Shown piece after piece: positions 15,786-20,298 of a DNA stretch of 64,000 nucleotides. A program made the translations under genes and the position numbers. This DNA is from Betaproteobacteria bacterium (GTDB lineage Bacteria; Pseudomonadota; Gammaproteobacteria; Burkholderiales; Burkholderiaceae_C). The notes under the pieces were generated by a model. That model did not search any database. It had not been told where the DNA came from and saw only the letters and a program-made list of their open reading frames with translations. The stretch covers positions 1 through 64,000 of the forward strand of contig JANYKR010000152.1 in NCBI GenBank assembly GCA_025358155.1. The letters run 5' to 3'. Within the stretch, counting starts at the first letter, position 1; each line of letters begins with the position of its first letter.

Positions 15786-16424
15786 TCACAGATGCCACCA
15801 TTTTGCGCTGGCCGACATTGCCGGGCGCCAATCGACCACCCGGGTGCCGCAGAGGGCGTCATGCACAAATTGCCGGTCTTGTCGCAGGCCGGTCAACGCG
15901 GCATAGCCCAACACGCCGACCAGCATCGCGAGCCCAAAACCCGCGCCGCCCTGCAGCCCGGCAAAGTGGGCCGTGGCCCAGGCCGGCACAAACCACAGCC
16001 AGGCCAGGCCAAATCTCAACAGGGCGCGCCACTGCGGCACCGGTGTGCCATCGGCGCTGACCAGGCGCAGGTGCCAGGCCTTCATGGCCACGGTCTGCCC
16101 GCCGCGTGACCAGAATGCGGTGAAGTAGATCGCCAGCACCACCCACAAGAATGCCTGCAGGCCGGTCTTGCCCTGCAGGGCATGGCGCTGCTGGGTCAGG
16201 CCGGAAAACAGCAGGCCAGCGGTCATCAGCACGCCAAACAGCAGCACGCCCTCGTAGACAAACGCTGCCATTCGACGGGCAAGGGCCGGCGCTCGGCTGG
16301 GGTTTTCGCAGCCAGCGGACGCAGCCGGCATGGCGGATGTTGGCGGCACGGTCGGCGCGGCTGTTTCGGCAACAGCTTGCCCGGCAAGCGCCTGCTTGCC
16401 GTCAGCGGTGCGGCCGACCGTCAT
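15786..16424 (-). CDS. RDD-family membrane protein
   Basis: A 212-residue protein with a Pro/Ala-rich cytoplasmic N-terminus of about 50 residues, then an RDD domain. The segment ALARRMAAFVYEGVLLFGVL supplies the Arg of the RDD name, and WSRGGQTVAMKAWHLRLV is the classic central motif. About four hydrophobic spans follow. The ATG overlaps the stop of the upstream DUF3106 gene as ATGA, so translation is coupled. It is the last gene of the sigma-factor operon. RDD proteins are of unknown function in most cases; transport of Na+ or solutes has been proposed for some. Confidence 0.85.
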   Translation of the reverse strand: MTVGRTADGKQALAGQAVAETAAPTVPPTSAMPAASAGCENPSRAPALARRMAAFVYEGVLLFGVLMTAGLLFSGLTQQRHALQGKTGLQAFLWVVLAIYFTAFWSRGGQTVAMKAWHLRLVSADGTPVPQWRALLRFGLAWLWFVPAWATAHFAGLQGGAGFGLAMLVGVLGYAALTGLRQDRQFVHDALCGTRVVDWRPAMSASAKWWHL

Positions 16425-17203
16425 GGCAAGCGGGGCGAGGATGAGGCGGCCTGTGGACCGCTTTGCGGCAGCAAGGTGCTGCTGTCGACCTGGCCAGGCT
16501 TGGCTGCGATCTTGGGTTGGCCCGGGCGGTGGTGCGCGGGGGGTTCGGCCGGCGTGGTCATCAAGATGGTGGTCGCGCCGGGCTTGGCTTGCACCATCGT
16601 CGGCGCTACCGGCCGGGCCGCGACACCTGAGGCTGCCGGGCGCGCGGCCGGCACGTTGCTCGAACCGGCGCCGGCTGGCTGGGCCTGCGTGGCAAGAGGC
16701 GGCGAGCCTGCCGGAGCTTTGCCTGGGTTTGCGCCGGACGGCGCCGTGCTGGTGCTGGTCTGGTTGCGGTTGGCCAATGCGCGGCGCTCGTCGTCCGGCA
16801 GGGCCTGATAGGCCTCCCAACGCGCTTGCTTTTGTTCAGGAGAGAACTGTTTTGACTCCTGGAACGACAGGCGTGCCCGGCCACGCTCAGCCGGTGTCAT
16901 GCGCGCCCATTCGGCCATGCGCTCCTGCACCCGTTGCTGGTCGGCCTGCGGCATGGCGGGGAACCGAACCGCGACCTCCAGCCACTTGGACTTGCGGGTC
17001 GCATCCAGGCTGGCCCAGTCGCGCTCCAGCGGACTCAAGGCTTTACGCTGCTGTGGGGTCAGGCTGGACCAGGTTGGCCCTGAATTGGCCGGTTTGTTGG
17101 CGGCCGCTGGCGCACTCGCGCTCTGGCCCCATGCTGGTGCAGCGGTGCCAGTCCAACCCATCAGGGCCAGCAAGAGCCAACTGCCCAGCGTGATACGCGA
17201 CAT
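16421..17203 (-). CDS. exported DUF3106 protein with LTxxQ-type motif
   Basis: A 260-residue protein with a signal peptide (about 1-26, ending AWG-QS), then a charged helical domain (about 42-145) and a Pro/Ala-rich, low-complexity C-terminal half. The helical domain begins SSLTPQQRKALSPLERDW. LTPQQ resembles the LTxxQ motif of the CpxP/Spy/ZraP periplasmic chaperone and sensor group, and MTPAERGRA and FSPEQKQAR look like weaker repeats of it. It lies 17 bp after DUF3619 and overlaps the RDD gene by ATGA. A periplasmic sensor or chaperone role is an inference from this motif and the operon. Confidence 0.8.
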   Translation of the reverse strand: MSRITLGSWLLLALMGWTGTAAPAWGQSASAPAAANKPANSGPTWSSLTPQQRKALSPLERDWASLDATRKSKWLEVAVRFPAMPQADQQRVQERMAEWARMTPAERGRARLSFQESKQFSPEQKQARWEAYQALPDDERRALANRNQTSTSTAPSGANPGKAPAGSPPLATQAQPAGAGSSNVPAARPAASGVAARPVAPTMVQAKPGATTILMTTPAEPPAHHRPGQPKIAAKPGQVDSSTLLPQSGPQAASSSPRLP

Positions 17204-17220
17204 CTCCAGTCCGCCCGCGT

Positions 17221-17679
17221 TCAGGGCGCTTCGACGCTGTGCAAAAACTCCGAGAAGCCCGGGTCGCCGTAGGCGGCAGGCGGCAGTTCGTCGGCCAGCA
17301 AGGCGCTGTCGATTTCAGCCGCAGCCGTGATCTGCTCAAAGTCATGGTGATGCTGAATCATCACCAGGCCAGCCACCAACACCACCAGAGGCAGTGCCGA
17401 GGCCAGGCGCAGCCAAAGTGAAGGCGGCCCACCCAGCACTGCAGCACGGCCTGAGACGTTGACGGTCTGGGCCGGGACGAGCGCAGCGGCGTGGCGCTGT
17501 TGCTTGGCCAAGGCCAGCGCGCGCTCGCGGCCAAACCGCAGCCGCTCACTGATGTCGTGCGGCAAGGACTCAGCCCCGGCGCTGAGCCGGGCGGCAATAC
17601 GAAGCGCCACCTGACCTTCGAGCGAGTCGGTGTGCAGCGGCGCTGGCGGTGCGCGCAAATGGGGGTTGAAGGTGTTCAC
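17221..17679 (-). CDS. DUF3619 single-span membrane protein, candidate anti-sigma factor
   Basis: A 152-residue protein. About 90 soluble residues (rich in Ala and Arg) precede one membrane span (about 91-108, LASALPLVVLVAGLVMI), and about 44 residues follow on the other side. This is the topology of membrane anti-sigma factors, although no ZAS zinc motif is present. It starts with GTG overlapping the sigma-factor stop as GTGA, so the two are made together. The name DUF3619 reflects that no function is established. The anti-sigma role is inferred only from topology and coupling. Confidence 0.8.
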   Translation of the reverse strand: MNTFNPHLRAPPAPLHTDSLEGQVALRIAARLSAGAESLPHDISERLRFGRERALALAKQQRHAAALVPAQTVNVSGRAAVLGGPPSLWLRLASALPLVVLVAGLVMIQHHHDFEQITAAAEIDSALLADELPPAAYGDPGFSEFLHSVEAP

Positions 17680-18242
17680 AGCGTTATTCCCTTGGTTCGG
17701 AGTGCCTTGGCCAGGGCGTGCACTGCCCTGGAGCAGTGTGTTTTCACACTGCCTTCCGAGCAGCCCATGACCGAAGCCGTTTCGGCAACATCATGCTCTT
17801 CCCAGTAACGCAGCAAGAAGGCTTCCCGTTGACGTGGAGGCAGTTCGGCCACCTGCGCTTCGATCGCAAGCAAGATCTGTGACCGCGAGACGGTGTCAGC
17901 GGCACTTTCAGCGCCGAGCATGCCTTCTGCCGACTCCAAGCTCTCCAACAGGTCAAAATCTCCATCGCCGGCGTCGACATCAAAGTCGGACATGTTTTTC
18001 AACACCGAGTTCCGCACCTTCTGGCGGCGGAACCAGTCCATCGTGGCGTTGGACAAAATGCGCTGGAAGAGCAACGGCAACTCCGCAGGTGGCCGATCAG
18101 CGTACTTCTCGGCCAGGCGGATCATCGAGTCCTGCACGACATCGAGCGCGGCATCCTCGTCTCGCACCGCGTACACGGTGCGCTTGAAGGCGCGTTTCTC
18201 GACGCTCTTGAGGAAATCGGAAAGTTCTTTGTCGCTGGCCAA
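17676..18242 (-). CDS. RNA polymerase sigma factor, ECF-like
   Basis: A sigma-70 family factor of about 188 residues. Region 2 is visible as DEDAALDVVQDSMIRLAEKY and the RNA-polymerase-binding FQRILSNATMDWFRRQKV segment. Region 4 is the helix-turn-helix PPRQREAFLLRYWEEHDVAETA...CSEGSVKTHCSRAV. The start is uncertain: a TTG at 18242 gives MASDKELSDFLKSVEK, the N-terminus expected from Burkholderiales homologues, while a GTG at 18299 adds 19 residues. Neither has a good ribosome site. The stop overlaps DUF3619 as GTGA. It heads a four-gene operon: sigma, DUF3619, DUF3106, RDD. Confidence 0.85.
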   Translation of the reverse strand: MASDKELSDFLKSVEKRAFKRTVYAVRDEDAALDVVQDSMIRLAEKYADRPPAELPLLFQRILSNATMDWFRRQKVRNSVLKNMSDFDVDAGDGDFDLLESLESAEGMLGAESAADTVSRSQILLAIEAQVAELPPRQREAFLLRYWEEHDVAETASVMGCSEGSVKTHCSRAVHALAKALRTKGITL

Positions 18243-18507
18243 AGTTGCGCCGCTGCACTCGCTGTGTCTGCGGTCCTGAATAGCCTTTGAGTATCGCACT
18301 TGGGGCGGTGCACGCCCGGCAACGGGGCGACGGCGCGACGAACTGGTGCGATAATCCGCCCTCGCTTAAAGCGTCACTGGTCTGAAGCAGGCTCGCCCAC
18401 CCAAGGCAGCCTCTTGTTTTTGATCTCCCAGGTTCTGATCCCGCCTTACGAGGGCGAGGGGAGGAGCACCGATGGATTTTCGTCAGAGAAATTCACAAAG
18501 GTTCTTC

Positions 18508-20298
18508 ATGGATATTTCTACCGCAGACAACAAGCGCGTCTCCTCGCTGCTTGCCCCAACCCCAAGCCTTTCCGCAGCCCCGGCGCCCGAGCTCAACGGC
18601 TCCGAGATCCTGGTGCGCTGCCTGCAAGCCGAGAACGTCAAGTTCATGTGGGGCTACCCCGGCGGGGCGGTGCTCTACATCTACGACGCACTCTACAAAC
18701 AGCAGACCATCGAGCATGTGCTGGTGCGCCATGAGCAGGCCGCCGTGCACGCCGCCGACGGTTATGCCCGCGCCACCGGCGAGGTCGGCGTCGCACTGGT
18801 CACCAGCGGCCCGGGAGTGACCAATGCGATCACCGGCATCGCCACCGCCTACATGGACTCGATCCCGATGGTGATCATCACCGGGCAGGTACCGACACCG
18901 GCCATCGGGCTGGACGCTTTCCAAGAGTGCGACACGGTCGGCATCACCCGGCCGATCGTCAAGCACAACTTCCTGGTCAAGGACGTGCGCGACCTGGCAC
19001 TGACGCTCAAGAAAGCCTTCCACATCGCCCGCACCGGCCGGCCCGGCCCGGTGGTGGTGGACATCCCCAAGGACGTGTCGCTCAAGACCTGCGCGTTTTC
19101 GTACCCCGACCGGGTGGAGATGCGTTCGTACAACCCGGTCAAGAAGGGCCATGGCGGCCAGATCCGCAAGGCCATGCAGTTGCTGCTGGCGGCCAAGCGG
19201 CCCTACCTCTACACCGGCGGCGGCGTGATCCTGGGCAACGCGTCGGCAGAGTTGCGGGAGTTGGCGCATTTGCTGGGAATCCCCTGCACCAACACGCTGA
19301 TGGGGCTGGGCGCAATGCCGGCGAGCGACCCCAAGTTCCTGGGCATGCTGGGCATGCACGGCACCTACGAAGCCAACATGACGATGCAGCACTGTGATGT
19401 GCTGCTGGCGGTGGGTGCGCGTTTTGATGACCGGGTGATCGGCAACCCCAAGCACTTTGCTTCGGTCGAGCGCAAGATCATCCATGTCGATATCGACCCA
19501 TCGTCGATCTCCAAGCGGGTCAAGGTCGATATCCCGATCGTCGGCGACACCCGGGACGTGCTGCTGGAGATGATCGCCTACGTCAAGGAGTCGCAAGTGC
19601 GGCCCGACGTGAGCGCGCTGTCGTCCTGGTGGGGCCAGATCAACGAGTGGCGCAAGCGTGAATGCCTGGCCTACAAGCCCAGCGACGACGTGATCAAGCC
19701 TCAGTTTGTGGTGCAGACCTTGTGTGAGCTGACCAAGGACATCGACACCTACATCACCAGCGATGTCGGGCAGCACCAGATGTGGGCGGCGCAGTACTAC
19801 CGCTTCGAGGAGCCCCGGCGCTGGATCAACTCAGGTGGCCTGGGCACGATGGGTGTGGGCTTGCCGTATGCCATGGGCATCAAGCTCGCCAAGCCTGAGT
19901 CGGAGGTGTTTTGCATCACCGGCGAAGGCTCGATCCAGATGTGCATCCAGGAGTTGTCCACCTGCCAGCAGTACAAGACCCCCGTCAAGATCGTGTCGCT
20001 GAACAACCGCTACCTGGGCATGGTGCGCCAGTGGCAGCAGATCGACTACGGCGGCCGCTACTCGCACAGCTACATGGACGCGCTGCCCGACTTCGTCAAG
20101 CTCGCCGAAGCCTACGGCCATGTCGGCCTGAAGATCGAGCGGCCGTCCGAGGTGGAGCCGGCGCTCAAGGAAATGCTCCGCCTGAAGGACCGCACGGTCT
20201 TTCTGGACGTGCGCACCGACCAGACCGAAAACGTCTGGCCGATGGTGCAGGCGGGCAAGGGCATCAGCGAGATGCTGCTGGGCTCAGAAGACTTGTGA
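18508..20298 (+). CDS. ilvI: acetolactate synthase, large (catalytic) subunit
   Basis: A thiamine diphosphate enzyme of 596 residues that makes acetolactate or acetohydroxybutyrate, the first step of valine, leucine and isoleucine synthesis. Visible are the N-terminal [16 protein letters not shown] with the catalytic Glu, the FAD/dimer region [16 protein letters not shown], and the ThDP motif GEGSIQM... with [12 protein letters not shown]. The start at 18508 has AAAGG 6 bases upstream and gives the family N-terminus MDIS. An in-frame ATG at 18472 has a better-looking GAGGAG and would add 12 residues. The small subunit ilvH follows after an unusually long 170-bp structured spacer. Confidence 0.95.

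Follow-up and report, generated by a model that had tools for sequence, protein, structure and literature searches.

In the RseA/RseB system of sigma-E, a membrane anti-sigma factor and a periplasmic modulator together serve an envelope response. In the CnrYXH system of Cupriavidus metallidurans, the anti-sigma factor is the class II protein CnrY, whose helix 1 binds region 4 of the sigma factor (sigma4) and whose helix 2 binds region 2 (sigma2), according to the parts of two papers available to us (PMC7406223, PMC4598750). The same part of the first describes the binding mode of CnrY as similar to that of class I anti-sigma factors, in which a single residue of helix 1 is coupled to two residues of sigma4 (PMC7406223), and the accessible part of a further paper describes CnrX as a transmembrane sensor (PMC7689651). 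Here we analyze a 64,000-nucleotide stretch of DNA (the window; contig JANYKR010000152.1, positions 1 to 64,000) from a Betaproteobacteria bacterium of the class Gammaproteobacteria, order Burkholderiales and family Burkholderiaceae_C, in which genes for an extracytoplasmic function (ECF) sigma factor and for two proteins of the families DUF3619 and DUF3106 stand together. We consider it rather probable that they encode an envelope switch, in which DUF3619 is an anti-sigma factor that holds the sigma factor, DUF3106 is its partner, and release follows a disturbance of the envelope.

The genes for the sigma factor, DUF3619, DUF3106 and an RDD membrane protein form one tight minus-strand operon that runs from 18242 down to 15786; the open reading frames (ORFs), family matches and junctions given for it in a preliminary description of the window were all confirmed. 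The sigma gene (17676..18242, minus strand) shares 4 nt with the start of the DUF3619 gene (GTGA, 17676-17679). DUF3619, the proposed membrane-tethered anti-sigma factor, is encoded at 17221..17679 on the minus strand from a GTG start (PF12279, E 4.1e-38), and a 17-bp gap (17204-17220) separates it from DUF3106, an exported all-helical protein and proposed periplasmic partner (16421..17203, minus strand; PF11304, E 2.7e-30). The DUF3106 stop overlaps the RDD start (ATGA, 16421-16424), which is an ATG within a longer open frame; the RDD gene (15786..16424, minus strand; PF06271, E 3.7e-15) is accessory and belongs to the form that the operon takes in the window's order. The sigma factor belongs to the PRK09047 family, scoring 256.1 bits with NCBIfam NF006550/PRK09047 against a curated cut-off of 173, and matches Pfam Sigma70_r4_2 with E 2e-17. 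Its ORF reaches back to a GTG at 18299 (207 amino acids [aa]), and its start is probably the TTG at 18242 (188 aa), since its relatives mostly start at that position of the family alignment. A further argument for the TTG is that a degenerate sigma70-like -10 element, TGCGATACT, at 18284-18306 overlaps GTG 18299.

Conservation of this arrangement was followed with iterated profiles built here, in a set of 246 loci that counts the window and omits its copy L001. The order sigma, DUF3619, DUF3106, RDD is found on one strand in 200 of them and the same order without RDD in 40, so that 240/246 keep the core order. Among the six exceptions, two lack DUF3106, one has RDD ahead of DUF3106, one lacks the sigma gene, and two (L024 and L029) lack DUF3619. 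The flanks of L001-L086 reach only about 1.5 kb, and a missing RDD gene there may therefore be a cut-off. The weak class matches, L003-L030, share the core apart from L024, L029 and L028, which is cut short by a contig end and is one of the two loci without DUF3106. The Pfam model of DUF3619 is matched in 256/299 genomes of the window's family, 217/300 of its order and 31/369 of its class, the class matches being mostly weak, and the sigma factor itself is found at E <= 1e-55 in 75/350 sampled genomes of the class; a search of the plasmid collection gave no sigma match. In a set of named genomes, comprising the best 80 of at least 577 confirmed stretches and fetched by sigma alignment alone, a DUF3619-like ORF lies beside the sigma gene in 80/80 (in four of these its open frame merely opens ahead of the sigma frame) and a DUF3106-like ORF in 78/80. 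Their titles include Nitrospira defluvii, Geobacter sp. OR-1, Trichlorobacter thiogenes, Dyella, Microbulbifer, Pleionea and Cocleimonas, titles of metagenome-assembled genomes being less reliable. Forty further class loci, taken from the sigma list, comprise 37 with all three genes, two with sigma and DUF3619, and one with sigma only (DUF3619-like, 39/40; DUF3106-like, 37/40).

The commonest sigma/DUF3619 junction is a 4-nt overlap, seen in 202 of the 244 loci with DUF3619, or in 157/322 under another start rule, and the junction is in matching frame in 283/322. At two loci (L212:2871-3971 and L092:3497-4480), the two genes share a frame without overlapping, the sigma stop codon and a short spacer lying between them.

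By direct search, an RDD-like ORF is present in 144/160 loci of the window's order, 0/80 named loci and 0/40 class loci. An acetolactate-synthase-like ORF, the divergent upstream neighbor of the sigma gene in the window (18472-20298; identity from reading the ORF only), is present in 122/160, 0/80 and 0/40. The loci searched span 3.9 to 10.6 kb, so some of these absences are cut-offs. As both genes are absent from all 120 loci outside the order, the conserved core is sigma-DUF3619-DUF3106: these three genes are an ancient unit, and RDD lies outside it. The presence of the acetolactate synthase (ilv) neighbor in the 122 loci and in the window would fit a control of branched-chain amino acid synthesis through that divergent gene. 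The ORF is missing from all named and class loci despite an equally conserved core, and the targets read outside the order are often exported proteins (see below), which makes such control very improbable; the idea was dropped as the core occurs without an ilv neighbor. A block, GACCCGTTTGCC, lies between the sigma and divergent ilv genes in L031-L060 and L207-L246, with 8-mers found in 50-57 of 76 window-family loci; it perhaps lies within the ilv leader and is not recognizable in the window.

DUF3619 had been described as spanning the membrane once, which its sequence bears out. There is one hydrophobic 19-mer, from residue 90, with 11 K/R and 6 D/E before it and 0 K/R and 9 D/E after it, a charge bias that indicates an N-in/C-out orientation. 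By hydropathy the transmembrane segment covers residues 90-108 (17356..17412, minus strand). Two helices are predicted ahead of it in a model of the sigma-DUF3619 read-through chain of locus L212. Helix 1 (residues 21-38; 17566..17619, minus strand), with boundaries drawn from that model, holds the coevolving Leu32 described below. Helix 2 (residues 41-60; 17500..17559, minus strand) carries the motif RLxx(A/G)RxxAL, contains the invariant R and A of a 42-sequence alignment and is aligned by profile comparison with an 'LDRLRxxAL' helix of zinc-motif relatives; it probably contacts sigma region 2, for which the coevolution signal is weak. The periplasmic tail (residues 109-152; 17224..17355, minus strand) has a conserved end, F-x-x-[WFY]-[LIVMA], in 205/218 DUF3619 proteins from the window's order and in 141/161 from elsewhere.

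The zinc-motif relatives belong to a sister module (L337-L347), found when the sigma factor was searched in one other order, that of G080. There the genes run exported protein, sigma factor, anti-sigma-like protein, DUF3106-like protein, and the module is complete in 11/12 loci, the twelfth (L348) being cut by a contig end. In 11/11 complete loci the DUF3619 relative has an Hx3Cx2C motif, plus an LDFYxWL tail, and the product of the exported gene upstream is 8-20% His. The DUF3619 profile matches all 11 relatives, with E between 3.9e-9 and 7.5e-13 at a database size of 1000. Aligned by hhalign with a profile of six of these 11 proteins, DUF3619 gives 97.7% and E 2e-12 over 80 columns, which take in helix 2, the membrane span and the periplasmic tail but not the zinc part. 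The zinc part of that profile gives 91.4% over 19 columns with zf-HC2 (PF13490), which we take to be an anti-sigma zinc finger. The best match of these relatives to sequences in the PDB is RsiW, a weak one (E 0.13); for DUF3619, PDB sequences gave no match or chance-level matches only, and a profile search gave no anti-sigma factor.

To relate DUF3619 to its sigma factor, direct coupling analysis (DCA) was performed on 378 sigma-DUF3619 pairs with both protein ends trimmed. In a first DCA, very strong pairs between the sigma C terminus and the DUF3619 N terminus were rejected as translations of overlapping reading frames, and the top sigma-cytoplasmic values of one later, untrimmed analysis were likewise set aside. 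The top inter-protein pair joins Trp147 of sigma region 4 (in LLRYWEEHD; Trp166 counted from GTG) to Leu32 of helix 1, with z 11.6 and the next pair at 5.8; outside the window's order the values are 12.2 and 6.6. Gaps apart, the pair occurs as W/L (325), F/F (15), L/Y (5), L/F (3), L/L (3), W/M (3), V/F (2), W/F (2), I/L (2) and single others. It ranks first after collapse at 70% and 60% identity, with a pseudocount of 0.7 and in four of six half-samples, and six trials with shuffled pairing gave maximum z values of 4.4 to 7.1. The cytoplasmic part of DUF3619, 44 of the 105 columns, takes part in 18 of the top 30 pairs. On a FastTree tree there are only three independent supported-branch changes, in which the partner changes the same way in 1.6 on average and the opposite way in 0. 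Coupling of one residue in helix 1 to region 4 of the sigma factor is what PMC7406223 reports for class I anti-sigma factors. The sigma domains of the L212 model match ECF chains, among them CnrH (4cxf) over sigma4 (Z 9.2, 67 residues, root-mean-square deviation 2.1). The gene overlap, the single span, the sister Hx3Cx2C module and the pair coevolving with sigma region 4 together lend good support to the assignment of DUF3619 as an anti-sigma factor that spans the membrane once.

A candidate autoregulatory promoter lies upstream of the sigma gene outside the window's order, where the motif GTCAA-N16..18-CGTT occurs in 88/161 regions, compared with a mean of 0.45 in shuffles; its consensus is TGTCAACC-N14-GCGTTA. 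Within the order, the motif is found in 5/139 loci beyond the window's family. The family itself has a sigma70-like TG(n)[CG]ATAAT ahead of the sigma gene in 67/76 loci (1 shuffled), an element seen in 6/141 loci in the rest of the order, and the window has only its degenerate form, the TGCGATACT noted above. A looser motif within 1.2 kb, counted with no shuffled control, is present in 146/162 loci outside the order, and in 59 of these an ORF lies between the site and the sigma gene. By crude rules, 55 of the 59 have a signal-like start and four do not; the 55 comprise 32 with RLDRxGDRI-type repeats, nine His-rich, three EF-hand and 11 other ORFs, some of which are perhaps not genes. The exported proteins with 11-residue, RLDRRGDRIE-type charged repeats stand between candidate promoter and sigma gene in, for example, L268, L328, L250, L017 and L319.

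The strict pattern was also searched in 30 chosen sigma-carrier genomes, giving 56 sites against 26 in a reversed control, with 23/56 in the sigma locus. A wider regulon drawn from this pattern was rejected, as sites beyond the sigma locus are close to chance in number. Among the 33 other sites, 17 were read, and 9/17 precede an exported or lipoprotein ORF, as judged by eye. The nine include three DUF4382-like lipoproteins and one protein with an LTEEQ motif that looks Spy-like. Second sites downstream of the operon lead into DUF4382-like lipoproteins in L408, L409, L417, L421, L281, L286, L265, L464 and L465; the L408 lipoprotein matches PF14321 with E 7.7e-8, and the other DUF4382-like ones are alike by eye. 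DUF4382-like genes of at least 465 aa lie behind motif copies at +2739 (L408), +2756 (L409), +2444 (L417) and +2545 (L421) from the sigma domain start, and such genes also stand behind motif copies at L452, L459, L464, L465 and L469. On G000 contig C187:30-533 (L478, L479), a small exported Trichlorobacter protein (L284) has two matches in tandem, with E 4e-10 and 9e-7; the Trichlorobacter gene sits behind a promoter copy, and L478 and L479 lie at the contig start with any promoter beyond view. Read from sequence, the targets outside the window's order are often envelope proteins, and this speaks for a response to the envelope more than for the sensing of metal.

Whether metal could be the signal bears on DUF3106. 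The preliminary description had DUF3106 exported and starting with an LTPQQ motif. The protein opens with a hydrophobic stretch, and LTPQQ stands near its domain start; hydropathy indicates an N-terminal export signal and no other span, and residues 45-150 are modeled as six helices with a mean predicted local distance difference test score of 94.8. It shares with CpxP/Spy proteins export, a helical make-up and short helix starts of the form L-[ST]-P-x-[QR]. The kinship with CpxP/Spy LTxxQ proteins that had been proposed from this was not upheld: against a profile of 19 LTXXQ proteins from related genomes, hhalign gave 18.6% over 15 columns. The LTXXQ family PF07813 gave no match up to E 1 for the window's DUF3106 or up to E 10 for its relatives in L339 and L004, and was not among the best 25 of 39 families for the L273 relative. 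LTPQQ is a short helix-start motif. Comparison with PDB sequences gave nothing significant, and a fold search gave no Foldseek match at E <= 0.001 (best VIA Z 3.0), a result that does not imply a new fold.

A CnrYXH-type metal sensor, in which DUF3106 would bind metal and free the sigma factor via DUF3619, could draw on the same overall parts as CnrYXH, on the His-rich (9/59) and EF-hand (3/59) products of operon-first genes elsewhere, and on the His content of the exported sister-module protein. It is unlikely in view of DUF3106 itself, which between residues 27 and 150 has 0 His, 0 Cys and 3 Met in the window (acidic ligands still being possible) and a family consensus without His or Cys. 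The operon opens with the sigma gene, in contrast to the sequence of genes in the name CnrYXH, and the LTXXQ comparison above, made with the LTXXQ set and not with CnrX itself, shows no relation. DUF3106 has an N-terminal signal only, whereas CnrX is transmembrane in the available part of its source (PMC7689651). Of the likeness to CnrYXH drawn in the preliminary description, what stands is the layout of an ECF sigma factor, a one-span anti-sigma factor with apparently two short cytoplasmic helices and a helical periplasmic protein; the metal ligands of DUF3106 and its LTXXQ kinship do not. DUF3106 also lacks a membrane anchor, and the kin of DUF3619 include anti-sigma-like proteins with a zinc motif. 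By its linkage, its location and analogy, DUF3106 is proposed as the sensor.

Several results weigh against the envelope switch. In the window's order the Trp147-Leu32 pair is nearly invariant (W/L in 212/217) and ranks 3403 of 17640, and its states include the exceptions L/L (3), W/F (2), I/L (2), V/L (1) and others. The pair falls to rank 2 after collapse at 50% identity and with a pseudocount of 0.3, and to rank 4 in two of the six half-samples; one shuffled trial reached z 7.1, and three supported changes on the tree are too few for significance. The L212 read-through model has a predicted template modeling score of 0.37, so that docking is not assessable. Hx3Cx2C, the class I zinc (ZAS) motif, occurs in 0/379 DUF3619 proteins, and the DUF3619 profile gives 1.9% and no match with zf-HC2; single sister proteins fall below the Pfam cut-off for zf-HC2 and far below the cut-offs of NCBIfam anti-sigma models. 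Coevolution between the DUF3619 tail and DUF3106 shows nothing above background. Finally, the GTCAA-N16..18-CGTT motif is found in 0/76 window-family loci and 1/11 sister modules, so the target and autoregulation evidence is not transferable to the window.

The unassessable docking and the silence of coevolution in the window's order would accord with DUF3619 being a co-transcribed membrane protein other than an anti-sigma factor, with the sigma factor controlled only at transcription. The zinc-motif relative in the same position, the outstanding coupling between sigma and helix 1 elsewhere and the extreme linkage of the genes make this improbable. The likeliest reading of the sequence comparisons is that DUF3619 is a class I anti-sigma factor from which the zinc core has gone while the two helices that grip sigma remain, its descent from class I being indicated by the zinc-motif relative in the sister module. 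Its likeness to the class I (ASDI) proteins RseA, RsiW and RskA consists in the coupling of helix 1 to sigma4, a possible helix 4-like sigma2 helix and the Hx3Cx2C of its sister; it differs from them in having no zinc motif and apparently no H2-H3 part.

In the envelope switch that we favor, helix 1 of DUF3619 would clamp sigma region 4 and helix 2 probably region 2, while the periplasmic tail of about 40 residues would sense conditions in the periplasm jointly with exported DUF3106. On envelope disturbance, DUF3106 would be drawn off or its binding altered, and DUF3619 would then free the sigma factor by conformational change or proteolysis. The freed sigma factor would transcribe a limited number of genes whose products are exported and, outside the window's order, its own operon too. 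The operon and its conservation, the topology and zinc-motif kinship of DUF3619, the one coevolving pair and the promoter outside the window's order support this switch; the contact made by helix 2, the part played by DUF3106, the manner of release, the nature of the signal and a sharing of targets by the window's organism are inferred.

One form of the favored switch, with its release step spelled out, is an RseA/RseB-like proteolysis, in which the DUF3619 tail would be cut on envelope stress, DUF3106 would act as a shield, and intramembrane proteolysis would free the sigma factor. The short conserved tail, the single span and the exported partner gene are consistent with such a route, which we regard as possible though less likely than not. 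DUF3106 departs from the RseA/RseB pattern in being predicted all-helical with no significant sequence match in solved structures, and its coevolution with the tail does not stand out. No cleavage site was found, none having been sought, and neighboring gene clusters were counted and not named, so a protease neighbor is neither shown nor excluded.

No paper in the open-access literature searched names DUF3619, DUF3106 or PRK09047, although a listing in ECF classification tables is possible. DUF4382 turned up in a glycoproteomics paper, and papers found for ECF factors with acetolactate synthase were off-topic. In the accessible parts of three C. metallidurans papers (PMC2864759, PMC9045368, PMC13192273), a match of any ECF sigma factor to the present one is not shown. 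We class the module as a variant of sigma/anti-sigma envelope signaling not described in the literature searched. The preliminary description had suggested an undescribed envelope-stress or metal-sensing circuit; no study of the module was found in that literature. The predicted targets outside the window's order favor the envelope part, and the metal part loses ground, there being no His or Cys in the mature domain of the window's DUF3106. A broader proposal, almost evenly balanced and offered tentatively, is that of a widespread, undescribed envelope switch made of a zinc-stripped anti-sigma factor and a metal-free helical sensor, DUF3106, whose small regulon would comprise charged-repeat proteins that are exported, lipoproteins of the DUF4382-like kind and one Spy-like protein. 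This switch would have been rewired in the window's order, where no exported first gene is seen, RDD has been gained and the ilv gene is adjacent, and where the promoter of the window's family is sigma70-like.

With this locus, two families whose function is unknown acquire a role that can be tested, as does a widespread ECF sigma factor. The series from zinc-motif to zinc-free anti-sigma factor, with the same tail and partner, is a natural one that would show how minimal anti-sigma domains arise, and the precise promoter and target list may offer a way to find the signal.

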